Source: Acetobacter farinalis (GTDB lineage: Bacteria; Pseudomonadota; Alphaproteobacteria; Acetobacterales; Acetobacteraceae). From it: a stretch of DNA of 64,000 nucleotides. The stretch spans positions 248,001 to 312,000 of the forward strand of contig NZ_WOTF01000001.1 of NCBI RefSeq assembly GCF_011516935.1. Direction: 5' to 3'. Below the pieces are notes generated by a model. It had not been told where the DNA came from, made no database searches, and saw only the letters and a program-made list of their open reading frames with translations. This document shows, in pieces, positions 34,024-47,350 of the stretch; positions within the stretch are counted from its first letter, which is position 1, and each line of letters opens with the position of its first letter. Both the position numbers and the translations under genes were made by a program.

Positions 34024-36294
34024 ATGGGTGTGACGACGGTGCAGGACAAGAAAAAGGGCCAGTCAGCCAGTGCCAGCGTGCCCGCCCGCAAACGCCTCCC
34101 GGCCTCAGGCCGGACCCGGAAAAAATCTTCACAGAAAAGCATGACGCTGGAGATGCCCGAGCGGTTCATCAACCGTGAACTCTCCTGGCTGGCCTTTAAC
34201 CAGCGCGTGGTGGAGGAGGCGGATAACCCGCGAAACCCCCTGCTGGAGCGCCTGCGTTTTCTGTCCATCAGCGCCAGCAATCTGGATGAGTTCTATTCCG
34301 TGCGTGTTGCGGGGCTTGTCGGGCAGGTGCGGGAAGGGCTGGTGGCGCTTTCACCCGATGGCCTGACCCCCTCCCAGCAGCTTGATGCCGTGCGTGAACG
34401 CTGCGCCCAGCTCCTGCGTGAGCAGCAGCGTATCTGGGTGGAACTGCGTGATCTTCTGGCGCAAGATGATGTGGTTCTGTGTGAGCTGCCCGATCTGGAT
34501 GAAGCGGACCGCGTCTGGCTGCATGCCTGCTTTATGGACCGCGTTTTTCCGGTGCTCACACCTCTGGCGGTTGATCCTGCACACCCGCTGCCCTTTATTC
34601 CCAATATGGGTCTGGCGCTGGGCCTGCGCCTGCTTCTGGTGGAAAACGGCGCGTTTGCGATGAACGCGCTGATTCTGCTGCCTGCGCAGGTTGAGCGGTT
34701 TATCCGCCTGCCCGCACGGGATGCGGCAGGCAGCCGGGCCATCCGCTTCATTCGGCTGGAAGATCTGATCACCCTGTGCATGGACCAGCTTTTCCCCGGC
34801 CTGATGGTGGGGGAGAGCGGGATGCTGCGGGTGGTGCGCGATACCGATGTGGAATTTGAGGATGAGGCGGAAGATCTTGTCCGGTCCTATGAAAGCGCGC
34901 TGAAGCGCCGCCGCCGTGGCGTGGTGATTCATCTGGACATGGAAAAGCGCGTGCCGACGGAACTGGCGGATGCCATTGCCTCCGGTCTGGATCTGCCGCC
35001 GGAGGAAATAGCCGTCCATTCCGGCATGATCGGGGTGGTGGACCTCAAGCAACTGATTGTGGATGACCGGCCCGATCTGCTGTTCCCGCCCTATACGCCG
35101 CGTTTTCCCGAACGGATTCTGGATTTCAACGGGGACTGTTTCGCCGCCATCCGGGCGAAGGACCTGCTGGTTCACCACCCGTTTGAAAGCTTTGATGTGG
35201 TGGTGCAGTTCCTGCGGCAGGCAGCGCTCGACCCGAATGTGATCGCTATCAAGCAAACACTCTACCGCACCTCGCGCGACTCCCCCATCGTCAAGGCGCT
35301 GATCGAGGCGGCCGAGGCGGGGAAATCCGTAACCGCCATGGTGGAACTGCGGGCACGGTTTGATGAGGAAGCCAATATCCGCCTCTCCCGCGCGCTGGAA
35401 GCCGCCGGGGTGCAGGTGGTGTTCGGCTTTGCGGACCTGAAGACCCACGCCAAGCTCAGCCTTGTGGTGCGGCGGGAGGGCACGCAGGTGCGCTCTTACG
35501 CGCATTTTGGCACGGGGAACTATCACCCCATCACAGCCCGTATTTATACGGACCTTTCCTTCTTCACCTGCAAGCCGGAACTGGCGCGGGATTCCGCCCG
35601 GCTGTTCAATTATGTAACCGGCTACGCCATGCCCGCCAGAATGGAGGCCATAGCCTTTTCCCCCATCACCACCCGCAACACGCTGCGGGAGTTGATTGAG
35701 GAGGAAATGGCTCATGTCAAAGCCGGGCGTCCGGGCACCATCTGGCTGAAAATGAACGCGCTGGTGGACCCTGACCTGATAGATTGCCTGTATCGGGCGT
35801 CCTGCGCCGGGGTGCGGATTATCGGTGTCATCCGTGGCATCTGCTGCCTGCGTCCGGGGGTGCCGGGTCTTTCGGAAAATATCCGCATCAAATCCATTGT
35901 CGGGCGCTTTCTGGAGCATTCGCGCATCTTCGCGTTTGGGAACGGCCACCGCCTGCCGTCTCGCTATGCGAAGGTCTATCTCTCCTCCGCGGACTGGATG
36001 ACACGCAATATGGACTGGCGGGTGGAGAGCATGGTGCCGGTTACCAACCCCACCGTGCATGCGCAGATGCTGGGGCAGATCATGGTCTCTAACCTCAAGG
36101 ACAATCTCCAGTCCTGGGGGCTGGAAGCCAGCGGCGCATGGCGCAGGCTCACTCCGGGCAGCCGGCCCTTCTCCGCGCATGACTGGTTCATGACATATCC
36201 CTCCCTCTCCGGGCGGGGGTCTGCCGCGCATGAAACGCCTCTTCGCGCGCCGGCGTCCCTCCCGGCCTCGAAAACCCTGATGTTTGACGACTGA
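34024..36294 (+). CDS. ppk1: Polyphosphate kinase 1
   Basis: Reversibly builds polyphosphate from ATP at the membrane. In this 756-aa protein the core starts at [22 protein letters not shown], and the two catalytic histidines are H475 (KTHAKLSLV) and H632 (LEHSRIFAF). Their separation of 157 equals that of E. coli H435/H592. [21 protein letters not shown] and [21 protein letters not shown] are typical. The first about 45 residues are a basic Ser/Lys/Arg-rich extension. ATG 34024 has AAGGGAG very close; GTG 34030 is better spaced and may be used. ppx follows after 81 nt. Confidence 0.95.
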
Positions 36295-36375
36295 GCCCAG
36301 TGGCGCGCGCGTGAAAAACCGGGATGCCGTGTTCTGGCAGGTTCTCTGTTTTCGTGAACGGTTTTCAGGAGTAGA

Positions 36376-37869
36376 GTGCCGCTCATGCAGATAGATATGC
36401 CGCGCCGCTCGGCCGTTGTTGACCTTGGTTCCAATTCTGTGCGCCTCGTGGTGTTCGAGGGCGTCTCGCGGAATCCTGTGCCGATTTTTAACGAAAAGGC
36501 CGTTCTGCGTCTGGGGCGCGGCCTGACGGCAACGGGCCGCCTGAATGAGGAAGGCGTGCAGATGGCCATGGAAGTGCTCAGCCGCTTCCACGCCATTGCC
36601 CGGGCCATGAATGCCGAGCCGTTTGAAATTCTGGCCACCGCCGCCGTGCGGGATGCGTTGAACGGGCCTGAATTTGTGGAAGCCCTGCGGCGGAACATGC
36701 CGGGGGTGCCAATCCGTATCCTGAGCGGAGAGGAAGAGGCTGATCATTCCGCCATTGGCGTCATGTGCGGCATTCCCGGCGCGCATGGTCTGGTGGCGGA
36801 TGTGGGGGGAGGCTCTCTGGAGCTGATCCGCCTTGCCGAAGATGGGCGGCATGATGCCAATACCCTGCCTCTGGGGGTCATTCGCCTGAGTGACCGCGCA
36901 AATGGAGATCTCGGCGTTGCCCGCACGCTGGCGGATGAGGATATCGGCGCGGTCAAATGGCTTTCGCAGGTCAAGGGCGGCACGCTGTATCTTGTGGGCG
37001 GAGCCTTTCGTGCGCTGGCCCGGCTGCATATCGCCCGGATGCAGTATCCGCTGAACATCGTGCATTATTATACGCTGGGTTTGGAGGAAGCGCGGGAGAT
37101 GACCGGCTGGCTCCTGCACGCGCAGCGCCGCAGTCTGGAGCGCCTGCCCGGTGCTCCCAAAAAACGTCTGGATGATGTGCCGTTCGCGGCCACCGTGCTG
37201 CGTCGGCTGCTGCGCCGGGTGCAGCCCGAGCGCGTGGTGTTCTGTGTGGATGGCCTGCGGGAGGGGTGGTACATGCTGAATGTCGCCCCGGATTGCCTGC
37301 CGCAGGACCCGATGGATGTGGTCGCCCGGGATATGTGCGCCCGGCTGGGCCGCAGCAATACGCTACCCGACGTGCTCTGCCGCTGGACGGCGGACCTGTT
37401 TTCCAAGGAAAGTGCGGCCGAGCAGCATCTGCGGCGCATTGCCTGCTTTCTTTCGGATGTGGGGAGCCACGATCACCCGGAATACCGCGCGGAGCAGACC
37501 TACTGGCGTATCCTGCGGGTGCAGGGCGTGGGGTTTGACCACGAAGCACGGGCCTGGCTCGCGCTGGCGCTGGCCGTGCGGTATGGTGCGGAGCTTAATG
37601 CCGAATTCCTCTCCACATCCCGCATGCTGCTGAGTGATGCCGCCTGGCGGCGTGCCGTGGCGCTGGGGCATGCCTTGCGTCTGGCCTATTCCCTCTCCGG
37701 CGGGACGGCTGTCCTGCTCGAGGGCACAGCCCTGCTGTGGCAGAACAAGGAACTGGTTCTGAAACTGGTCTCCTCCCGCGTGGCCGTGCGGGGGGAAACC
37801 GTGGGGCGGGGCCTGTCCCGCCTTGGGCAGGCGTTGAATGTTCCCACCCGGTTTGAGGCTGATCTGTAA
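36376..37869 (+). CDS. ppx: Exopolyphosphatase / pppGpp phosphatase
   Basis: Hydrolyses terminal phosphates from polyphosphate (and possibly pppGpp), balancing Ppk. ASKHA-fold phosphatase of 497 aa with phosphate loop VVDLGSNSVRLVVFEG, ATAAVRDALNG, the catalytic Glu region LSGEEEADHSAIGV and second loop VADVGGGSLELI. The C-terminal part is the HD-like/PPX_C region (SDVGSHDHPEYRAEQ). The start is GTG 36376, with AGGAG 4 nt upstream; ATG 36385 is in frame but too far from it. It forms the ppk-ppx pair usual in alphaproteobacteria. Confidence 0.93.
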   Translation: MPLMQIDMPRRSAVVDLGSNSVRLVVFEGVSRNPVPIFNEKAVLRLGRGLTATGRLNEEGVQMAMEVLSRFHAIARAMNAEPFEILATAAVRDALNGPEFVEALRRNMPGVPIRILSGEEEADHSAIGVMCGIPGAHGLVADVGGGSLELIRLAEDGRHDANTLPLGVIRLSDRANGDLGVARTLADEDIGAVKWLSQVKGGTLYLVGGAFRALARLHIARMQYPLNIVHYYTLGLEEAREMTGWLLHAQRRSLERLPGAPKKRLDDVPFAATVLRRLLRRVQPERVVFCVDGLREGWYMLNVAPDCLPQDPMDVVARDMCARLGRSNTLPDVLCRWTADLFSKESAAEQHLRRIACFLSDVGSHDHPEYRAEQTYWRILRVQGVGFDHEARAWLALALAVRYGAELNAEFLSTSRMLLSDAAWRRAVALGHALRLAYSLSGGTAVLLEGTALLWQNKELVLKLVSSRVAVRGETVGRGLSRLGQALNVPTRFEADL

Positions 37870-38023: not shown

Positions 38024-40402
38024 ATGAGCGCTTGTTCTGTGGGAGTGGGAATTTATGAGCAGTCATTCAGGGGAAAACGTGGCGTGTCTTCTGAAGAAAT
38101 AGTCGACCCGACCGTGCAGAACGATGCCTCTGTGCGGCGTGTTCTGCTGCATCTGGTTCTGCCGTTTGGCGCTCTGATTCTGGTTGTGGGGTCCATTGCC
38201 GCCATCGGCCTGCATTCCTACCGCTCCACGCGGGCAGGGGTTGTCGCTCTGACACATGAACTTCTGGGGGCTGTGCAGCGCAATATTTCTCAGGAAGTCT
38301 CGGATTACATCATGCCGGCCGTGGCGGGGAACACCATTGCCAGCGGCATGATCGCGCATGCCCCCACTCAGGTGGTGGACCGCGTTTTCAATTCCTACGG
38401 CGCGGCCATGCTGCAAAGCGTGCCCCAGTTGCAGTCCTTTTATCTGGGGGATGAAGAAGGCCATTTCCGCCTGATTACCCGTGGGCCGGATGGCACAAAT
38501 CAGGAGCGCACCACGTTTGAGGTGCATGATGGCAAGCAGGTCTATCATCGTGAATTTTTCACGGATGATGGTGTAAAAACCGGCGAGGAATATACGGACG
38601 CCACCGGATATGACCCGCGCAAGCGCCCCTGGTATACTGATACGGAAGACCAGACGGACACGCAGTGGACACAGCCTTACCTGTTCCCGGCGTCCCGCCA
38701 GTTTGTCATGACCAGTTCCCTGCGCTTTCAGGGCGCAAACGGCCATACCTATGTTTTTGCAACCAATATTTCCCTGAATGAACTCAGCACGTTTCTTGAC
38801 CACCTGAAGGTCGGGAAAACCGGTAACGCGATTATTCTGGACAGCAAGGGGCGCGTTATTGCCGGGCGTAACATCATGCAGCAGGCGGAAGCGGCAGGAT
38901 GGGACTCTGAAAAAATGGTGCTGGACCCCAAAACGCATCCTGTTTTTGCGCGTGGGTATGATCATTACCGGGTGCGCGGCTTTGGCCCCCACAGTTTTGA
39001 GCTGAATAACAAGCGTTACGTCACCATTGCCTCTCCGCTGAAAAATTCAGCAAAAGGCTGGATCCTCCTGCTGTCCGCCCCGGAAAATGATTTTGCAAGC
39101 TTTGCCCGGCAGAGCAGCCAGCAGAGCCTTCAGTTTGCGGGCATTATCATCGTGTTCTCTCTGGTGCTGGCCGGCTTCCTTGTGCGGCAGGTGCGGCGGT
39201 CTGAACGGATGGCCCGCAAGCTGACGCAGCAGGGGATGCAGATTGCGCATGAAAGTGCCGCGGTCCAGCAGGTGGCGTCCACGCCCAGCCTGTTTGATCC
39301 CACGGCGGAACCGCTCGTGCTGACAGAGCAGCTTGCGCATGTGACGAATGCCCGGCGGGCCAGCATCTGGCGCCTGCTGTATGACGGGGCCGCCATAATC
39401 TGCGAGGATTCGTACGATCAGAAAGAGGATACGCATTCCGGCGGATTTGAAATGTCCCGCACGGAGCTTGGCGGGCTGTTCAGCAGCATTGAATCCGGTG
39501 ATGTGCTGAATGTGCCCAATGCCGCCACGGATGAACGGACAACGCAGTTTGAGCGCCTCGTCATGCGTGAACTCGGGACACACATGCTGGCCGTATACCC
39601 CATTCAGGGGCCGAAAGGCATTGTGGGGGCGGTGGTGCTGGAAGATGCGGCCATGGTGCCGCATGTGGTCTATTTTGTGAGCCTGATGGCGTCCATTGCG
39701 GGGATCAGGCTGGTTGAAACCGGTCAGGATGCCGGAGGGGCGCTCACACTGCCGGCTGATGAGGTGCCCGGGGCAATGGCCATCGCAGCCCCCCGCGCCG
39801 AACCGAGTTTTGATAACATGCTGGTGCGTGCGCCAGGCGGCGCGGTCTCATCCGGCATTTATCCCTCCGTTGCCGTGCTGGTGATCACGTTCTCGGACCC
39901 GGTGGTGGATGGAGAGACGCAGACACACGCTCTGCTGGATCTGATCAATCAGCTTGCGACGGATGTTCAGCGCATTTCCAGAGAGCGCGGGCTGTTCGCG
40001 GTGGAAGTGGCGGGCCACCGGATGATCTGCATGGCAGGCTGCACGCAGGAGGAAGACCCCACGGCCATCATCCGCGTTGCGGATGCCGCGCTGACCATGC
40101 GGGAGACGTTCATGGCGGCTCTGGCTGCGGCGGATCTGGAGCCTGTGTTCGCCATGGGGCTGGATTACGGTGCGGCTTTTGGCGGGGCTGTGGGGGAAGA
40201 GCCCAAAGTGTTCAACCTGTGGGGGCAGACAGTCTCTCTGGCGGAACTCATGGCGCAGGGTGTGACAGAAGGCGGCACCATTCAGGTGACAGACCGTGTC
40301 TATCAGGCTCTGCGTGACCGGTATCTGTTCCGTTCCCGCGGGACATTTTATGCACCGCATCTCGGCCTTGGCCGGGCGTATGTTCTGGCAGCCCGGCGAT
40401 GA
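38024..40402 (+). CDS. Membrane sensor: dCache, GAF and degenerate class III cyclase domain
   Basis: A 792-aa inner-membrane protein. TM1 is about residues 42-64, the periplasmic dCache-like domain 65-360 (DPRKRPWYTDTE, GHTYVFATNISLNELS), TM2 about 367-388, a cytosolic GAF-like domain about 425-575, then a cyclase-fold domain about 615-785. In the last, all key positions are changed: the first metal Asp is T622 (VAVLVITFSD), the second is H665 (VAGHRM where IGDA is usual), and GDTVNLAAR reads GQTVSLAEL with Q735 and S738. It should bind but not cyclise nucleotides. The stop overlaps the MlaE gene (ATGA), tying this sensor to lipid transport. The start may instead be a downstream GTG near 38081. 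Confidence 0.85.
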   Translation: MSACSVGVGIYEQSFRGKRGVSSEEIVDPTVQNDASVRRVLLHLVLPFGALILVVGSIAAIGLHSYRSTRAGVVALTHELLGAVQRNISQEVSDYIMPAVAGNTIASGMIAHAPTQVVDRVFNSYGAAMLQSVPQLQSFYLGDEEGHFRLITRGPDGTNQERTTFEVHDGKQVYHREFFTDDGVKTGEEYTDATGYDPRKRPWYTDTEDQTDTQWTQPYLFPASRQFVMTSSLRFQGANGHTYVFATNISLNELSTFLDHLKVGKTGNAIILDSKGRVIAGRNIMQQAEAAGWDSEKMVLDPKTHPVFARGYDHYRVRGFGPHSFELNNKRYVTIASPLKNSAKGWILLLSAPENDFASFARQSSQQSLQFAGIIIVFSLVLAGFLVRQVRRSERMARKLTQQGMQIAHESAAVQQVASTPSLFDPTAEPLVLTEQLAHVTNARRASIWRLLYDGAAIICEDSYDQKEDTHSGGFEMSRTELGGLFSSIESGDVLNVPNAATDERTTQFERLVMRELGTHMLAVYPIQGPKGIVGAVVLEDAAMVPHVVYFVSLMASIAGIRLVETGQDAGGALTLPADEVPGAMAIAAPRAEPSFDNMLVRAPGGAVSSGIYPSVAVLVITFSDPVVDGETQTHALLDLINQLATDVQRISRERGLFAVEVAGHRMICMAGCTQEEDPTAIIRVADAALTMRETFMAALAAADLEPVFAMGLDYGAAFGGAVGEEPKVFNLWGQTVSLAELMAQGVTEGGTIQVTDRVYQALRDRYLFRSRGTFYAPHLGLGRAYVLAARR

Positions 40403-41292
40403 GTGGTACGAACGAACCGCGTGAGCCCGGAGGGGAGCTTGATCCCATTCTGGCGGCTGATGCCGCCAGCCACCCGCATCACGGGCAGAAATTTGCGCTG
40501 CGTCTGTGGGTGTACGAAAAACTTGGCCTGGTGGGGCGGCTGACACGCAGGCAGATCCGCTTTTTCCTCATCATGCTCGGGGCAAGCTGGGGCGTTATTT
40601 TTGAAAGCTTCCGCACGCATTCCTGGCGACGGACAGTCCGGTTCGAATTCGGGGCCACGCTGAACAGTGTTGTGGGCGGCGGGATGGTGGCCACCCTGTT
40701 CGCCGGCACGCTGACAGGCGTGGCGGCTGTCTCCCAAACCATTTACTGGCTGGGTCTGGCGGGCATGACCAAAATGACGGGCACCATTCTGGTGGACGTC
40801 GTTATTCGGGAAATTGCCCCCATTCTGGTCGGTATGCTGCTGCTGGGGCGGAATGGCATGCTCTCCGTCACGGAGCTCGGACTGCTGACCACGGGGGGAG
40901 AAATCCGCTCCATGCAGGCGCAGGGGCTGGACCCGTTCCTGCTGCTGGTCATGCCGCGTACGCTGGCGTTTACGGTCGGCGGGTTTACGCTGGGCATCCT
41001 GTTCTCCTTCGCGGCCTTGCTCACCGGCTATGTGATCAGCCGGATTTCCGGCGTGGTGACCAACCCTGTCTGGACGTTTTTTTATGATGTGATTACCGCC
41101 ATGTCCCGCGCGGATTATCTGGTGATCCCTCTTAAATTCATCGCGGTCGGGTTTGTCGTGGGGTTGGGTGGCTGCCTGACCGGGCTGACCGCAACCAACG
41201 AAGACAACCTTCGCACACTCCTGCCGCGCGGCTTCTCCCGTGGTATGCTGATTGTCATGGCTGTCAGCGTTCTGTTCAGTCTGGACCTGTAA
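40399..41292 (+). CDS. mlaE: MlaE-family ABC transporter permease
   Basis: Inner-membrane permease of an MCE-type phospholipid transport system, 297 aa. After a polar N-terminus and the amphipathic region (GRLTRRQIRFFLIMLGASWG) come about five hydrophobic segments: VVGGGMVATLFAGTLTGVAA, VVIREIAPILVGMLLLG, FTVGGFTLGILFSFAALLTGY, and FIAVGFVVGLGGCLTGL with a final LIVMAVSVLFSLDL. REIAPILVGMLLLGR with a following glutamate segment (TELGLLTTGGEIRSMQAQGLDP) is the signature coupling region. It overlaps the sensor gene upstream and is 4 nt from the ATPase-like gene. No MlaB (STAS) gene is present. Confidence 0.92.
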   Translation: MSGTNEPREPGGELDPILAADAASHPHHGQKFALRLWVYEKLGLVGRLTRRQIRFFLIMLGASWGVIFESFRTHSWRRTVRFEFGATLNSVVGGGMVATLFAGTLTGVAAVSQTIYWLGLAGMTKMTGTILVDVVIREIAPILVGMLLLGRNGMLSVTELGLLTTGGEIRSMQAQGLDPFLLLVMPRTLAFTVGGFTLGILFSFAALLTGYVISRISGVVTNPVWTFFYDVITAMSRADYLVIPLKFIAVGFVVGLGGCLTGLTATNEDNLRTLLPRGFSRGMLIVMAVSVLFSLDL

Positions 41293-41296
41293 AGCC

Positions 41297-41998
41297 ATGG
41301 AGACACGCACCGTCGGGCCATTGCTGGAACTGAACAAGGCTGTGCCCTCCTTTGAAGAAAGCGGCCTGCCGCCTTTGCCGTTCAGCATGAAGCTGATGCC
41401 GGGGGACTGCGTGGTGGTGGAGGCGCGTTCCGCCTCTCGCGCCACCATGTTTGCGGATCTGTGCTGCGGGCTGGTGCCGCTGGAAGAGGGCGCGGTAAAA
41501 TTCATGGGGCTGGACTGGGCTGAACTGCATGACAGGGAACTGAACGCTCTGCGCGGGCGCATTGGCCGTATGACCCGCAGGCCAAGCTGGCCGGAGTTCC
41601 TGAACACGCACCTTGCCATCACGCTCCAGCAACTGCACCATACCAACCGCCCGCTGGACGAGGTGGTGGCGGAAGCCGCCCGGCTGGGAGAACTGTTCGG
41701 CCTTCCGGGCCTGCCGGTGCTGCCCCCCAGCAGGCTTTCCGATGTAGACCTGCTGCGGGCAGGGTGTGTACGGGCATTTATGGGGCGCCCCCGGCTGCTG
41801 CTTCTGGAAGACCCGCTGGAAGCAAGCCCTGTGGACCTGCTCAATCCGTTTCTGAGTGCGATAACGGAGGCGCGGGACAGGGGAGCCGGTGTGATCTGGC
41901 TGGTGCGTGGCAATGCCGTATGGCAGGGCTACCGGCAGGGGATTACAAGTTTATGGCGCCTGGCTGATGACGGGCTTGTAGAAGTACGGACAGCATAA
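41297..41998 (+). CDS. ABC-ATPase-like subunit (MlaF position) lacking nucleotide-binding motifs
   Basis: By position and length (233 aa) this is the MlaF-type subunit, and the framework aligns well: LMPGDCVVVEA...ATMFADLCCGLVPLEEGAVKFMGLDWAEL...LRGRIGRM. Every catalytic element is altered, though. Walker A GxxGxGKST reads ARSASRAT with Lys replaced by R48 and Ser by A49; the Q-loop Gln is Arg; LSGGQ reads LSDVD; Walker B DE is inverted to E171-D172; the H-switch stretch reads VIWLVRGN. The frame is intact and its stop overlaps the MCE gene, so it is expressed and probably structural. ATP binding is unlikely on sequence grounds. Confidence 0.85.
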   Translation: METRTVGPLLELNKAVPSFEESGLPPLPFSMKLMPGDCVVVEARSASRATMFADLCCGLVPLEEGAVKFMGLDWAELHDRELNALRGRIGRMTRRPSWPEFLNTHLAITLQQLHHTNRPLDEVVAEAARLGELFGLPGLPVLPPSRLSDVDLLRAGCVRAFMGRPRLLLLEDPLEASPVDLLNPFLSAITEARDRGAGVIWLVRGNAVWQGYRQGITSLWRLADDGLVEVRTA

Positions 41999-42948
41999 TG
42001 TTCCAGATCCGCTTACGACAGAAGATCAAACCGCTTATTTCCCTGCGCTATGCGGATGAATGGGTCGGGTTCCTCGTACTGCTCAGCGTGGTGCTGTTTG
42101 CCGGTGCCGTGGTGGAGGCCGGTGTGCTGCGTGACTGGCTGACACCGCCTGCGCGCCTGCATGTCACACTGCCTGCCTCCGGCGTGGGCGGGCTGACCGT
42201 GGGGAGTGATGTGCAGTTGCTCGGCACCCATGCTGGCTCTGTTCGTGCGGTCAAACTCAACCCCTCGGGCGAGATGTATGCGCTGGTGGATCTGGACCCG
42301 CAGGCCAAACCCTTCATCCGGCGGGACAGCACGGCCATTATCCGCAAGCAGTTTATTGTCACCGGCTCCTCCTATCTGGAGCTGAGCCGTGGGCATGGTG
42401 ATGCCATGGACTGGAGCTATGCGGTGCTCAACGCCACACCGGCCCCCAATCCGGCGGATCAGATTACCGCCACGCTGAATGATATTCAGGACCAGATCAT
42501 GCCGGCCATTGCCAGCGCCCGACATATGATGGCGGAACTGGATGCCACCATGACAGATATGCATGCGGGCAAGGGCACGGTGGGGCAACTGCTGACCAAT
42601 GATGAACTGCTCAAACAGGCGCAAGCGGCGGTTGTTTCACTGAACACCGTGATTGATCGCCTCAAGCCGATTGAGCAGCAGGTATCCGGCATCATGACCA
42701 AAACGGATGGCACGATGAGCAATCTGCGCGCGTCCACGCATGATCTGAAAGGGGCGACACCCCATCTGCCAGCCATTGCCGCCAGTGTGGAAGCCAGCAC
42801 GGCCGATCTGCCAGCACTGCTCGCACAGGCCCAGACCACGCTGTATGGGCTGGAAAAACTGACGGAACAGTTACGCGGCATGTGGCTGCTGGGGGGGAAG
42901 AAAACAACACACGAGAACCTTCTGGCCCCCCGGCAGGTGCGGCCATGA
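41998..42948 (+). CDS. mlaD: MCE-domain protein (MlaD-like)
   Basis: Periplasmic lipid-binding ring subunit anchored in the inner membrane, 316 aa. One N-terminal membrane helix (VGFLVLLSVVLFAGAVVEAGV, about 23-43) leads to the MCE domain at about 50-135: GVGGLTVGSDVQLLGTHAGSVRAV, STAIIRKQFIVTGSSYLELS. A helical Ala/Gln/Thr-rich C-terminal half (about 160-300) with heptad-like spacing suggests a coiled-coil tunnel extension, longer than E. coli MlaD (183 aa). ATG overlaps the TAA of the ATPase-like gene (TAATG), and its stop overlaps the lipoprotein gene. Confidence 0.9.
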   Translation: MFQIRLRQKIKPLISLRYADEWVGFLVLLSVVLFAGAVVEAGVLRDWLTPPARLHVTLPASGVGGLTVGSDVQLLGTHAGSVRAVKLNPSGEMYALVDLDPQAKPFIRRDSTAIIRKQFIVTGSSYLELSRGHGDAMDWSYAVLNATPAPNPADQITATLNDIQDQIMPAIASARHMMAELDATMTDMHAGKGTVGQLLTNDELLKQAQAAVVSLNTVIDRLKPIEQQVSGIMTKTDGTMSNLRASTHDLKGATPHLPAIAASVEASTADLPALLAQAQTTLYGLEKLTEQLRGMWLLGGKKTTHENLLAPRQVRP

Positions 42949-43925
42949 GGCGCGGTGTGCACCAGCTCCGGCAGGCCCCGCGGCGTAAGGCGTCCCGCCT
43001 CCCGGCTTCCTTCCTTCTGCTCCCGCTTCTGCTGGCAGGGTGCGGCGGGCAGGCTGCGGATGCGCCTTCCGCGCGGGATGATGCCGCGTGGGATCAGGCC
43101 ATGACAGCCGGGCAGGATTCCTTCGAACTGGGTCGCTACAGCGTGGCCATCACCCAGTACCGCAAAGCGGCGGATCTGGCTCTGTTGCGGGATGATGGTG
43201 TGGCGGCCTCCGCCGCCGGGTATGATCTTGCCGTCTCCCAGCTTGCGGCGGATGATCCGGCGGGCGCTATTAAAACCGTGGGCATCACCCGGCAGGCAGC
43301 CGCTCTGCGGCGGACAGCGGCACAGCCGGAGTTTGATCTGGTTGAGGCCGCGGCTTACTACCGCCTGAAGCAGTATCCGCAGGCCATAACACTGGCGTCT
43401 GCCGGTATGGCTGCCCCCCAGCGGGCCGGTGTGGCGCGGGCCGCGCTTGTGCTGGGGCTTGCGGCGGATGCCGGGCAGGATAGCGTTGCCTTCCAGAAGG
43501 CTCTTGCGTTTTTTGACGGACTCAAGCCGCCGCTCTCCCTTACGGAGCAGGCTGACAAGGCGGAAATTCAGGCCCGCGCCCTGCTGGCGAGTAACCCCGC
43601 GCAGGCGGACATGCTGGCCGAACAGGCCGCCGACCTGCGGCGGCAGGAAGCCTCTTACCGGGATATGGCGCGCGCTCTGGCTCTGGCCGGGCAGGCGGCG
43701 GACCGCTCTGGAGACCGGCAGAAGGCGGCCAGCCTGTGGGCCCGGGCCGCGCAGAGTGCCTCCGTGCAGGCGAAGTTTGCCGATACGATGGATGCCGCCA
43801 CCGTGACGCAGGGCAACCATCTGACGCGGGGTGGGGCGGACACCTCCCGCAGTGATGCGGCGCAGTGGGGGCATCTGGCTGGCGGTGTTTCCCTGCATCC
43901 GTTTGAGGAAGAGAAAAAACCTTAA
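42945..43925 (+). CDS. TPR-like lipoprotein of the MCE operon
   Basis: A 326-aa lipoprotein: basic N-terminus, hydrophobic FLLLPLLLAGC with Cys33 as lipidation site. The mature part is nearly all helical and built of Ala/Tyr/Gln repeats such as DSFELGRYSVAITQYRKAADLAL, PEFDLVEAAAYYRLKQYPQAITLA and RALALAGQAADRSGDRQKAASLWARAAQ, the spacing of tetratricopeptide repeats. This is not the usual PqiC/DUF330-type auxiliary lipoprotein of MCE operons. The ATGA overlap with mlaD indicates coupled translation. It may bind an outer- or inner-membrane partner of the MCE ring; no homologue is recognised with certainty. Confidence 0.8.
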   Translation: MRRGVHQLRQAPRRKASRLPASFLLLPLLLAGCGGQAADAPSARDDAAWDQAMTAGQDSFELGRYSVAITQYRKAADLALLRDDGVAASAAGYDLAVSQLAADDPAGAIKTVGITRQAAALRRTAAQPEFDLVEAAAYYRLKQYPQAITLASAGMAAPQRAGVARAALVLGLAADAGQDSVAFQKALAFFDGLKPPLSLTEQADKAEIQARALLASNPAQADMLAEQAADLRRQEASYRDMARALALAGQAADRSGDRQKAASLWARAAQSASVQAKFADTMDAATVTQGNHLTRGGADTSRSDAAQWGHLAGGVSLHPFEEEKKP

Positions 43926-44064: not shown

Positions 44065-45072
44065 ATGAGAAGTTTGTTGCGGCAGCTTAAGGAAAAGCGC
44101 GAGGCAAGACTGACGGCGCGCTATAACAAACTGGATGATGCCCCGCTTCAGAACACAAACGGCACTGGCAAAAAAGTCCATTTTACAACAAAGGAAGCCA
44201 TACGCCGGTTCCGCGCTCATGCGCTGGTGGAGGAAAAAAGCCATCGGGATATCGTGCGTGTGGGGCTGACAGACAGTGTCTGGACAGACCTGTACCATCA
44301 TGCGCTGACGATAAGCTGGCCTTCTTTTGCGGCGCTATCTGTCGTTTTCTATTTTCTGGTGAACCTGTTTTTCGCGCTGCTCTACCTGATCGTGCCGATG
44401 CAGGTAACCGGGACAGGGCAGCATGGCCTGTTGTCGTTGTTCTTTTTCAGTGTGCAGACCCTCTCCACCGTGGGGTATGGCGGCATGGTGCCGGTGGGGA
44501 CCACGGCCAATGTCATCGTGTCGTTTGAAGTGCTGGCGGGCATGATGATCAACGCTCTGGCAACGGGCGTGGTGTTTGCGCGCTTTGCCCGCCCGCGTGC
44601 CCGCATCATGTTCAGCAACAAAGCAGTTATCAGCAGTGAGAACGGAGTGCCTGCCCTGTGCATCCGCATTGCCAACATGCGGCTCAGTGTCATTTTATCC
44701 GTGGATGTGGAAGTCGCACTCTCCCGTCTGGTCATGAGTGAAAACGGGCATCTGGTGCGGCAGTTTGACCAGCTTCTGCTGGTGCAGTCTCATGTGCCGG
44801 TCCTGCGGTTTGCATTTGTCATGGCGCATGTGATCGGGCCGGAAAGCCCGCTTTACGGGAAGAGCATGGCGGAACTGGATAAGGAAACAGCCGAAATTGT
44901 CGTGACAGTGACCGGTACGGACGAAGCGTTGGGTCAGACCGTTTTTGCCCGAACAGCATACCGGTTTGACCTTGTGCACCATAATCACCGGTTTGTGGAT
45001 ATTGTCGCCCCTCGGCCGGATGGCCGAATTGCTGTGGATTACACGCGTTTTCACGATATTGAAAAACACTGA
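44065..45072 (+). CDS. Inward-rectifier-type potassium channel (KirBac family)
   Basis: Tetrameric K+ channel, 335 aa. A cytosolic N-terminus with amphipathic slide helix (DLYHHALTISWPSF), outer helix FAALSVVFYFLVNLFFALLYLIV (88-110), pore helix and selectivity filter TVGYG (135-139), inner helix NVIVSFEVLAGMMINALATGVVFARFARP (149-177), then the immunoglobulin-like Kir cytosolic domain (KAVISSENGVPALCIRIANMR). Eukaryotic and bacterial Kir channels are gated by phospholipids, which makes its position 139 nt after an MCE lipid-transport operon suggestive. Co-transcription is possible but unproven; it converges on the FUSC gene. Confidence 0.92.
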   Translation: MRSLLRQLKEKREARLTARYNKLDDAPLQNTNGTGKKVHFTTKEAIRRFRAHALVEEKSHRDIVRVGLTDSVWTDLYHHALTISWPSFAALSVVFYFLVNLFFALLYLIVPMQVTGTGQHGLLSLFFFSVQTLSTVGYGGMVPVGTTANVIVSFEVLAGMMINALATGVVFARFARPRARIMFSNKAVISSENGVPALCIRIANMRLSVILSVDVEVALSRLVMSENGHLVRQFDQLLLVQSHVPVLRFAFVMAHVIGPESPLYGKSMAELDKETAEIVVTVTGTDEALGQTVFARTAYRFDLVHHNHRFVDIVAPRPDGRIAVDYTRFHDIEKH

Positions 45073-45139: not shown

Positions 45140-47350
45140 CTAGGCCGCAGCGGAGGGGAGGTGGAAGCGGCGCGTTGTATCCAGAAACGTGACATTATCC
45201 GCCAGCTCCCGCTTCATGACTTCCAGACTGCCCACGGCGCGGGTCAGGTCCATTTGCCGGGAGAGGTTGGGTTCCGCCAAAGCCGCGGGGCGGAGCAGTG
45301 CAAGCGCTCTGGCGGCTGTTTGCGCGGGCGTGGTGGTGCGACCGTGCAGGGTGGCGATGCTGTGCAGGACATCCTGCAACAGCTGCGTCTGTCCCGGCTG
45401 CAGAATCTTGTGTTCCAGAACATGCTGAATCCGTAAAACCAGAAGCCCTACCGTCATGACTCCCATGGCTCCCGCCAGATAGGCTTCTGTCAGTGTATCG
45501 GGGCTTTCACCCGCATGGTGGATAATCTGTGCAATGCGCCCGCAAGACTGCGCCATCCATTCCGCCGGGGTAAAGGCGCTCTGTCGTGCGGCTAGCCTGC
45601 GCAGGTCCCGCACCAGCTTGCGGCGCAGGCGCCAGCGCTCCGCCGCCGGGTCAAACGGCAGCACCAGCCGGAATGCCCACACACCCAGTGCAATACCCAG
45701 CACAACTGCCGGGGTGGTGTTGAACCAGACCAGTTCATTCAGGCGCGCATGGTTGGCTGGCCCCACCATGAACGGCATGAAATTGTTATAGGCCGCGGCG
45801 GTGCCAATAGTGCCGGGCGCGCGCAGCGCCAGCCCGCCCACCAGCATGGGAAAGAATAGTGAGGCCAGCAAGGTTTCATTACTGGCCTGCTCCGGCAGCA
45901 CCACAAAAACCAACACCCAGGACACCGCCGCCGCCCACAAGGCTCCCCTGAGAAAACCGCTCGAAGCCAGAACAGGATTCTCAAAGGCGGAAAAGCGTGT
46001 GCTGGTCACGGCTACAAACATGGCCAGTGTGGCACCGTTCGGCCACGCAGTAACCTCCCAGATCAATGCGCCAATGCAGATGGCGGCGGCCGCACGCAGG
46101 CCGTTGTTCAGAGCCAGAACGGGGTCTTTTTCAATATGCTGCTTAAAGCGGAAGCGGTCCGTGGGGGCTGGGTCATAAAGGGCAATAAAATGCAGCAGGG
46201 CTTCATCCAGTTCCAGGATCAGCTTTGCCAGAGCCGTTTCCAGAATACGGCTTTCCAGCAGATCCCGTATCAGGTCATCCGGGCAGGCGGGCTGGGCGCG
46301 GGCTTGCTCAAAAAGGATCAACGTATCTGTTGCGGATTGCAGGCAGTCCGTCCGGGCGCGGTACAGCGCTTTCCGGATCACGCGGGCGGCTTCAACCGGT
46401 GTGGTATTCTGAAGCTGTTCCGGTACGTGGTTCAAAATCGTGGTAAAACTGGAGAGGGTTTTTCTGAATGCCGAAGGCAGGGGAGAGGCGGCTTCCATGT
46501 GGATATGCAGGCTCAACCCACGCGCCAGAAAGGTGGAAATACTGGCCAGAACCGCGCGGGCATGGTCTCCGGCATGGGCATGCGGGCCGATCTCGATTTC
46601 ACTGAACTCAATCTGGTCTGCCAGAGAAGGGATGCTGCTCATCAGGGCGCGGGAGCGGAACAGGCCGTCCTTTTGCCCCAGAAGCAGTCCCGTCATGCTC
46701 TGGCAGGCACCGGACAGGGTTTCCTGCATGCGCCTGCGGAGTTCCTCCTGCGCAATGGTATCCAGCCGGGGTGCAAACAGGCCCGCCAGTGTGCTTTCGC
46801 ACACAATGCCCAGCGTGATGTATGTCGTGCGGGACAAGGCGATCATGAACACATTGTCCGGCTGGTTTGCCGCACTCAGCACAATAATCGTGCAGGTGAA
46901 GGCCACCAGCACCAGCGCGTAGGACCGGAAATTACGCAGGAAGGTGGCTTCCGCACAGCAGGCTCCGGCTCCCAGCGCCAGCAGGGGGAACAGCAGCCAG
47001 GGCTCCTGCGGGAAGGCTGCCAGAAAGGCCACACCGGCAATCGCTCCGGCACAGGTGCCTATCAGCCGCCATTTGGCTTTGGAGAGGCTTTGCCCGCGTG
47101 AGTTCTGGGCAACAATCCATGTGGTCATGGCGGCCCATTGCGGGCTGTCCATTTCCATCCATAACGCAATGCTCAGGGCGAGTAGGGCCGCGCAGGTTGT
47201 GCGCAGGGCAAAGCCGAGATTAGCGGGGGAGGGGGCAATCAACCAGGCCAGCGGCGCAGTTTCTGGAAGACCGGCTCGGCCCTGCACTGCACCGGTAACC
47301 CACGCAGGCAGGTGTCGAACAAGGCGTTCAGAGAATAAGGACAAGCGCAC
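45140..47350 (-). CDS. FUSC-family inner-membrane efflux protein, copy 1
   Basis: A 736-aa member of the aromatic acid exporter/FUSC family (AaeB, YccS/YhfK type). It has two sets of about five to six hydrophobic helices, one at residues 40-180 (LGFALRTTCAALLALSIALWMEMDSPQWAAMTTWIVA) and one at about 410-560 (GLRAAAAICIGALIWEVTAWPNGATLAMFVAV), separated and followed by cytosolic helical regions. The SRGQSLSKAKWRLIGTCAG stretch is the family signature. It is a clear paralogue of the gene at 48015-50198. No AaeA/HlyD periplasmic partner is adjacent. Substrate unknown; weak organic acids are plausible in this organism. Confidence 0.85.
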   Translation of the reverse strand: MRLSLFSERLVRHLPAWVTGAVQGRAGLPETAPLAWLIAPSPANLGFALRTTCAALLALSIALWMEMDSPQWAAMTTWIVAQNSRGQSLSKAKWRLIGTCAGAIAGVAFLAAFPQEPWLLFPLLALGAGACCAEATFLRNFRSYALVLVAFTCTIIVLSAANQPDNVFMIALSRTTYITLGIVCESTLAGLFAPRLDTIAQEELRRRMQETLSGACQSMTGLLLGQKDGLFRSRALMSSIPSLADQIEFSEIEIGPHAHAGDHARAVLASISTFLARGLSLHIHMEAASPLPSAFRKTLSSFTTILNHVPEQLQNTTPVEAARVIRKALYRARTDCLQSATDTLILFEQARAQPACPDDLIRDLLESRILETALAKLILELDEALLHFIALYDPAPTDRFRFKQHIEKDPVLALNNGLRAAAAICIGALIWEVTAWPNGATLAMFVAVTSTRFSAFENPVLASSGFLRGALWAAAVSWVLVFVVLPEQASNETLLASLFFPMLVGGLALRAPGTIGTAAAYNNFMPFMVGPANHARLNELVWFNTTPAVVLGIALGVWAFRLVLPFDPAAERWRLRRKLVRDLRRLAARQSAFTPAEWMAQSCGRIAQIIHHAGESPDTLTEAYLAGAMGVMTVGLLVLRIQHVLEHKILQPGQTQLLQDVLHSIATLHGRTTTPAQTAARALALLRPAALAEPNLSRQMDLTRAVGSLEVMKRELADNVTFLDTTRRFHLPSAAA

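Follow-up and report, generated by a model that had tools for sequence, protein, structure and literature searches.

Among the described systems that most resemble the locus discussed here is MlaFEDB of Escherichia coli. ATP hydrolysis is reported to be essential for this transporter, and a K47A change, an E170Q change and a deletion of the C-terminal extension of MlaF each fail to complement (PMC7367683). A protein without all three features would not be expected to power the transporter, and an ATP-free relative would not be the default expectation. According to one study, phospholipid can pass from MlaD to MlaC without ATP, and ATP hydrolysis blocks this transfer; both the movement of lipid by MCE systems without ATP and its direction are disputed (PMC10212509). 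A direct route for lipids from the membrane to MlaC, without ATP, has also been argued (PMC11289387).

Other relatives are treated in one report (PMC12436622). It describes the Mpc system of Brucella and a Mla system of Veillonella with a long MlaD as bridges across the envelope; in Brucella, a complex of a long MlaD homologue and an outer-membrane lipoprotein is proposed to span the periplasm. The ABC ATPase of Mpc, MpcF, is well conserved; MpcE carries a STAS domain at its N-terminus, and the lipoprotein is PqiC-like. According to the same report, PqiA and LetA belong to MCE systems without an ATPase domain.

The analysis presented here shows that acetic acid bacteria keep, under strong selection, an operon for a lipid transporter whose ATPase subunit has lost its catalytic motifs, next to a sensor that also looks dead; this suggests an envelope machine without ATP of its own. 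The window (the whole stretch of DNA analysed, 64,000 nucleotides from Acetobacter farinalis) contains five genes in a tight row on the forward strand, with junctions that overlap or are 4 bases long. The first gene (38024..40402) encodes a 792-residue dCache-GAF-cyclase-like sensor with a degenerate class III cyclase domain, as identified by Pfam and alignment, and overlaps the next gene in an ATGA. The second (40399..41292) encodes a MlaE permease (Pfam MlaE, 2.1e-30) and the third (41297..41998) a 233-residue homologue of ABC ATPases that lacks the nucleotide-binding motifs. The fourth (41998..42948) encodes a protein with one MCE domain (Pfam MlaD, 9.5e-12) and a long C-terminal region that is predicted to be helical. 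The last (42945..43925) encodes a putative lipoprotein, with a lipobox, LLAGC, read from the sequence and a weak similarity to TPR proteins (Pfam TPR_11, 0.0016, below its cutoff). We mark the second, third and fourth proteins with a prime: MlaE′, MlaF′ and MlaD′. A MlaE permease and a MCE-domain protein together are the mark of a MCE-ABC lipid transporter, and they flank mlaF′. The mlaF′ frame is open and its stop codon overlaps the mlaD′ start by one base (TAATG); thus, the first-pass annotation was right in calling the frame uninterrupted and overlapping with the next gene. The closest named relatives found with the MlaF′ protein, each 90% identical to it, come from A. malorum and A. persici.

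MlaF′ has the homology expected of an ABC-transporter nucleotide-binding domain (family profile against the PDB, best E 4e-20), and hhalign aligns the family with 19 canonical MlaFs over 204 columns (probability 99.1, E 6.6e-19). The window protein alone matches Pfam ABC_tran only below the cutoff (E 0.054), and among 44 relatives, 22 have a match to it with an E no higher than 0.01. NCBIfam gives DevA and FtsE as the best matches, with MlaF at E 0.22, and the PDB profile matches are headed by DppD, MacB, other DppD-like proteins, BceA and LolD, with the A. baumannii MlaF lower; DevA, FtsE, LolD and MacB score equal to or above MlaF. The first-pass annotation described a protein that aligns along its length with MlaF-type ATPases. 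The alignment stands, over the 204 columns, but sequence alone does not resolve the subfamily, since MlaF′ is about as close to other ABC ATPases as it is to MlaF. The name therefore rests on the position of the gene between mlaE and mlaD and on the profile match to canonical MlaF. An AF2 model of MlaF′ from 17 Acetobacter sequences has a mean pLDDT of 49.8; its top Foldseek matches are LolD, E. coli MlaF (6xgz) and FtsE, at an rmsd of about 10 Å, and it is too poor a basis for judging the pocket.

The central claim of the first-pass annotation, that every nucleotide-binding motif has been lost, is borne out for the window protein by alignment to E. coli MlaF and to other canonical MlaFs, and the individual motifs read as it gave them. 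The former Walker A (residues 43–50, 41423..41446) is ARSASRAT, in which R48 aligns on K47 of E. coli MlaF and the Lys is lost. A conserved RGRIGR segment runs up to and includes the position of the former Q-loop Gln (residues 86–94, 41552..41578), where R94 aligns on E. coli Q92. The former ABC signature (residues 147–151, 41735..41749) is LSDVD and aligns on LSGGM. The former Walker B (residues 167–172, 41795..41812) is LLLLED, in which E171-D172 aligns on E. coli D169-E170, i.e., the pair is swapped and a Glu occupies the Mg-Asp position. The former H-switch region (residues 199–206, 41891..41914) is VIWLVRGN and aligns on the region of E. coli H203; all five features are on the forward strand. 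The stretch downstream of the H-switch, about 18 residues in E. coli MlaF, is absent from MlaF′ in the alignment, as is the C-terminal extension (E. coli residues 247–269), and MlaF′ ends at residue 233. By the Walker A, signature, Walker B, H-switch and Q-loop, the window protein would not be predicted to function as an ABC ATPase. Probably it does not bind ATP in the normal way, an inference from the motifs alone.

The losses are conserved in the orthologues, none of which was seen to be intact. A GxxxxGK[ST] Walker A is present in none of the 126 MlaF′ family sequences and in all 20 canonical MlaFs, which were taken from 14 genomes. The 126 sequences include same-genome duplicates (L108 and L109; L numbers denote loci and G numbers genomes) and two fragments (L093 and L095) without the Walker A region. 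With the P-loop in none of 126 sequences, a chance origin of the motif loss is excluded. Likewise, SGG is absent from the aligned signature columns of all 89 MlaF′ sequences scored and present in 20 of 20 canonical MlaFs; four of the 126 sequences (L028, its duplicate L108, L144 and L147) have a SGG off these columns. D151, which lies inside the former signature, is conserved in 87 of 89. The Mg-Asp position of Walker B is occupied by Glu (E171) in 84 of 89 and by Asp in three, and the catalytic-Glu position (residue 172) is D in 36, N in 18, E in 11, H in nine, Y in five, S and P in four each and I and G in one each. The Walker B Asp and the catalytic Glu never occur together in these 89 sequences. 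The H-switch column is Arg in the window protein and in 50 of 89 sequences, and His in two (L082 and L085). The replacement of the Q-loop Gln by Arg noted in the first-pass annotation holds for the window protein but not for the family, in which 27 of 89 orthologues have Gln. These residual Gln and His residues indicate that the catalytic residues faded at different times; the P-loop and the signature were lost before the sampled members split. The basal L082 and L085, which retain the H-switch His without a P-loop, may preserve a hint of the sequence in which motifs disappeared.

Orthologues of MlaF′ are present in 91 of the 299 Acetobacteraceae genomes sampled (two are partial) and, by hand count, in 35 of the 102 genera sampled. 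Ninety of the 91 match at E 5.1e-24 or better, including one that is truncated (G126); the remaining one is a fragment at a contig edge (G289, E 8.8e-12), and the next matches begin at 6.4e-14. In a sample of 250 genomes from the order, every matching genome among the matches listed is from the Acetobacteraceae, with a gap in E-values from 1.3e-47 to 1.1e-24. A class sample of 385 genomes has six matches at 1e-26, two of them outside the Acetobacteraceae (G421 and G736), and a phylum sample of 398 genomes has six at 1e-30, one of them outside (G421). In G421 and G736 the row of genes is the same, and their MlaF′ sequences have neither P-loop nor signature. A search of named genomes with the single protein found 21 loci, 17 of them Acetobacter members and four weak; L139–L142 were excluded as weak partial matches to other ABC proteins. 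Sampling at the level of family, order, class and phylum, which falls short of all genomes, turned up no intact close relative and no basal intermediate with intact Walker motifs; the basal members read (L082–L092 and L143–L148) are all without a P-loop. The presence of the five-gene row in other families of the class (L143 in G736 and L144 in G421) could reflect either old inheritance or transfer.

The gene row is also conserved. MlaE and MlaD matches lie beside MlaF′ in all 90 of the loci L004–L093, many of which are short, and the same loci have a cyclase-like match in 88 cases and a lipoprotein match in 85. The order sensor, MlaE′, MlaF′, MlaD′, lipoprotein on one strand occurs in 74 of the 82 loci with longer flanks. 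Four of the eight exceptions end at a contig edge (L073, L085, L088 and L137), two look fragmented (L092 and L093) and two from one genus (L086 and L091) have no cyclase-like gene next to mlaE′. Three upstream or nearby frames were checked in L086, two of which have unrelated Pfam matches, and none of three frames checked in L091 has a Pfam match. Within the 74, the cyclase-like frame is broken or short in L038, L057 and L059, as is the MlaE frame in L057. With its gene absent from two loci and damaged in three, the sensor is not strictly required. The small genome G126 (L093), with a truncated MlaF′, a fragmented operon and only weak MlaE matches, appears to be a case of MlaE-system loss.

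MlaE′ is the third and most divergent MlaE paralogue of its genome, with the weakest of the three MlaE matches, and a tree separates 16 MlaE′ proteins from 21 other MlaEs on a branch with 100/100 support. It retains positions equal to E. coli R97, E98, R111 and P146 and replaces the canonical invariants A118, M123, P156, G169, F209, V239 and D250, of which A118 and M123 sit just before or in the coupling-helix stretch. The coupling helix of E. coli MlaE lies between TM2 and TM3 (PMC7790496), and the alignment has a recognisable MlaE′ segment at that site. MlaD′ weakly matches other MCE proteins in the PDB, and its AF2 model has helices between residues 152 and 298, with a mean pLDDT of only 46.6. 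A long helical tail and an outer-membrane lipoprotein would be features of a trans-envelope bridge; however, the tail of MlaD′ is a low-confidence prediction and the outer-membrane location of the lipoprotein is presumed.

The first-pass annotation did not recognise the upstream gene as one for a pseudo-cyclase sensor, nor did it see the spread of the trait over 35 genera or the canonical MlaE-MlaF pairs elsewhere in the genome. The sensor matches Pfam Guanylate_cyc (6.4e-15), GAF (4e-7) and dCache_1 (9.8e-9, below its cutoff) and aligns to solved adenylate cyclases (best E 2.2e-11). T622, E661, H665, N731, S738 and L742 occupy the sites of the catalytic Asp1, Lys, Asp2, purine Asp, Asn and Arg of class III cyclases. 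In a 59-row alignment, the canonical residue is found at Asp1 in 0 of 55 scored rows, at Lys in 17 of 55, at Asp2 in two of 56, at the purine Asp in 0 of 56, at Asn in six of 56 and at Arg in five of 55, and two or more of the six occur together in only one row of 59 (L051). Asp1 is an uncertain column, since in 23 rows an Asp stands three columns further along. The basal L083 and L084 retain the second metal Asp, which fits descent from an active cyclase. The domain match is thus shared with class III cyclases, but the metal-binding and other catalytic residues are missing from most members, for which an active cyclase was rejected on these grounds. The sensor looks dead and would be a second pseudoenzyme of the same operon.

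To gauge selection, we estimated dN/dS by YN00, with NG86 as a fallback, between the genes of the window and those of 12 named Acetobacter species, chosen from the 17 Acetobacter loci. Eleven pairs have a defined dS and give 0.061–0.175 for MlaF′; in five of them dS is under 1 (0.072, 0.080, 0.084, 0.092 and 0.175) and the others are near saturation. MlaE′ (0.040–0.229) and MlaD′ (0.026–0.156) are similar, the cyclase-like gene gives 0.065–0.264, and the lipoprotein gene is the fastest evolving of the operon (0.18–0.58). These values for MlaF′ are the opposite of the relaxed selection that the first-pass annotation, if it came together with intact motifs in close relatives, would have accepted as a refutation. 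Constraint in MlaF′ has been relocated: the catalytic columns vary and other residues are near-invariant. For example, between 88 MlaF′ rows and 21 canonical rows, two sets of different spread, the mean entropy of the Walker A columns is 2.23 bits versus 0.39, that of the D-loop 3.17 versus 0.07 and that of the Q-loop Gln column (residue 94) 2.85 versus 0. Residues 86–93 (RGRIGR plus two more, just before the Gln) go the other way, with 0.86 bits in MlaF′ and 1.40 in canonical MlaF. The invariant or near-invariant residues are G36, G58, G65, W74, R86, G90, R91, W98, H115, P137 to P140, D151, R159 and L227, and the near-invariant stretches are the RGRIGR before the Q-loop and a FGLPGLP.

How these patterns are to be explained is less straightforward. 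Decay of mlaF′ would account for the lost motifs, and some loci do look damaged: the G126 protein is truncated to 169 residues among fragmented operon neighbours, the cyclase-like frames are short in L038, L057, L059, L092 and L093 and the MlaE frames are short in L025, L057, L092 and L093. However, only two of the 91 MlaF′ frames, L093 and the contig-edge fragment L095, are shorter than 220 residues, residues are invariant across the family and the low dN/dS means that the family is not decaying. We therefore agree with the first-pass annotation that this is not simple decay, a chance that we consider negligible; decay is rejected for the family, but not for G126 and perhaps not for G264 (L092). 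Another possibility is that MlaF′ binds a nucleotide or another ligand in an unorthodox way, e.g., a signalling nucleotide in a remodelled pocket. Charged residues are indeed common in the family (R44 and D45 each in 64 of 88 rows, with S45 in the window protein; D54 in 80, R86 in 88, R88 in 80, R91 in 85, R159 in 88 and D151 in 87), and a cyclase-like partner is encoded upstream. Nevertheless, MlaF′ has no phosphate-binding glycine-lysine motif, its P-loop columns are variable and the cyclase partner looks dead, so we consider such binding very unlikely.

The main rival to the pseudo-ATPase reading is that MlaE′ borrows a canonical MlaF and that MlaF′ is an assembly factor or the dead half of a mixed dimer. 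A search of the same genome for a second, canonical mlaF, which the first-pass annotation had proposed, found two canonical MlaE-MlaF pairs; its two best MlaF-like ATPases score 192.7 and 173.0 bits and the next 135.8 bits or less. Moreover, in a selection of 66 MlaF′ genomes every one has two or more MlaE matches; a strong canonical match is present in 65, and G126 has weak ones only. Given these canonical MlaEs, and the canonical MlaFs taken from 14 genomes, a shareable ATPase is at hand; sharing is possible, but it would need cross-talk between paralogues. Each canonical MlaF-like ATPase already adjoins its own MlaE, and MlaF′ lies beside MlaE′ in every one of the 90 loci, as expected of a cognate partner. 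In addition, neither Walker A nor signature survives in MlaF′, so that a mixed dimer would lack one half of each composite ATP site, which makes hydrolysis improbable by inference. Borrowing is thus unlikely in our estimation. The co-occurrence with canonical MlaE would also suit a regulator that competes for MlaE or titrates MlaD rings and so switches the ATP-driven Mla systems, and G126, the genome with weak MlaE matches only, is also one with a truncated MlaF′. A mere competitor, however, would have no need of a dedicated MlaE′, MlaD′ and lipoprotein whose gene order is conserved, or of a constraint on MlaE′ and MlaD′ similar to that on MlaF′, and we regard this role as decidedly improbable.

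The first-pass annotation left three options, namely a MCE system that works without ATP hydrolysis, one that borrows an ATPase encoded elsewhere or one that uses the subunit as a structural or regulatory pseudo-ATPase. The evidence does not decide among them, although we favour the first and the third combined: MlaF′ is probably, if far from certainly, a structural or regulatory pseudo-ATPase in a MCE complex that moves lipid without ATP hydrolysis of its own. Its suggestion of a pseudo-ATPase in a MCE system is supported by the lack of any intact orthologue in our samples and by the dN/dS of 0.06–0.18. The ATP-free reading rests on the missing P-loop and signature SGG, the low dN/dS, the inverted conservation and the coupling segment of MlaE′, together with the constant presence of MlaE beside MlaF′, the five-gene order and the degenerate cyclase neighbour. 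The published ATP-free transfer, the MCE systems without an ATPase and the failure of altered E. coli MlaF to complement also speak for it.

In this pseudo-ATPase model, MlaF′ would be descended from an ABC nucleotide-binding domain and would neither bind nor hydrolyse ATP in the normal way. Most likely, a MlaF′ dimer would dock under a MlaE′ dimer through the retained coupling-helix/Q-loop interface and serve as a platform, both structural and regulatory. MlaE adopts an outward-open state when ATP is absent; lacking a power stroke, MlaE′ would stay in this state or be switched around it. Diffusion or affinity would then carry lipid from MlaE′ through an elongated MlaD′ tube to the lipoprotein, which presumably sits at the outer membrane. 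The sensor, with a periplasmic dCache domain outside and the GAF and a dead cyclase dimer inside, may serve as a gate or scaffold that contacts MlaF′. The economical inference is that lipid flows passively or by affinity through a conduit of which MlaF′ is the scaffold and a docking site, perhaps for the sensor. The fuller proposal, a MCE conduit built around two conserved pseudoenzymes that is free of ATP hydrolysis and gated allosterically by a periplasmic signal, is tentative, and we hold it to be somewhat short of probable. That a complex forms, that transport is passive, which way it runs and that the sensor gates it are all inferences, as there are no structural, interaction or transport data. 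We also count against the conduit the low confidence of the MlaD′ tube, the replaced invariants of MlaE′ and the loci in which the sensor is missing or broken.

Compared with known systems, MlaF′ shares with E. coli MlaF the ABC-domain homology over 204 columns and a gene next to mlaE and mlaD; it differs in lacking the catalytic motifs and the C-terminal extension, which binds the neighbouring subunit, and neither mlaB nor mlaC is among the five Acetobacter genes. The likeness to Mpc and the Veillonella system lies in MlaE-MlaF-MlaD plus a lipoprotein and in a long helical MlaD, the latter being on the MlaD′ side a low-confidence prediction only, whereas in the Acetobacter row the ABC subunit is a pseudo-ATPase, the sensor a pseudo-cyclase and the lipoprotein TPR-like. 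PqiABC and LetAB share MCE transport and an inner-membrane part without an ATPase. PqiA and LetA, however, are of a different family and have no known ABC subunit, whereas the Acetobacter MlaE-type permease keeps a dead one. TAP, CFTR and SUR have a degenerate nucleotide-binding domain that is kept by selection, with a catalytic partner domain in the same complex, but no catalytic subunit is encoded in the Acetobacter operon. We found no published description of a pseudo-ATPase MCE system among the open-access titles and abstracts listed, and the first-pass annotation knew of none. A natural MlaE-MlaD system in which the ABC subunit is kept and the ATP site is erased would be a test case made by evolution, and it should reveal how MlaE and MlaD behave once they are no longer coupled to ATP. 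In it, an ABC domain would also have been put to new use, as a scaffold or in signalling, beside a second reused enzyme domain. The hosts are acetic acid bacteria, which are easily grown and of practical use.

Several other genes surround the operon in the window. Upstream is a Ppx/GppA phosphatase gene (36376-37869), to which a 922-residue frame on the reverse strand (34351-37119) is partly antisense; this frame is probably spurious. Just downstream is a gene for a prokaryotic inward-rectifier potassium channel (44065-45072; Pfam IRK_C, 3.5e-24), and a FUSC-family (fusaric acid resistance-like) membrane protein is encoded on the reverse strand at 45140-47350 (Pfam, 3.5e-144).
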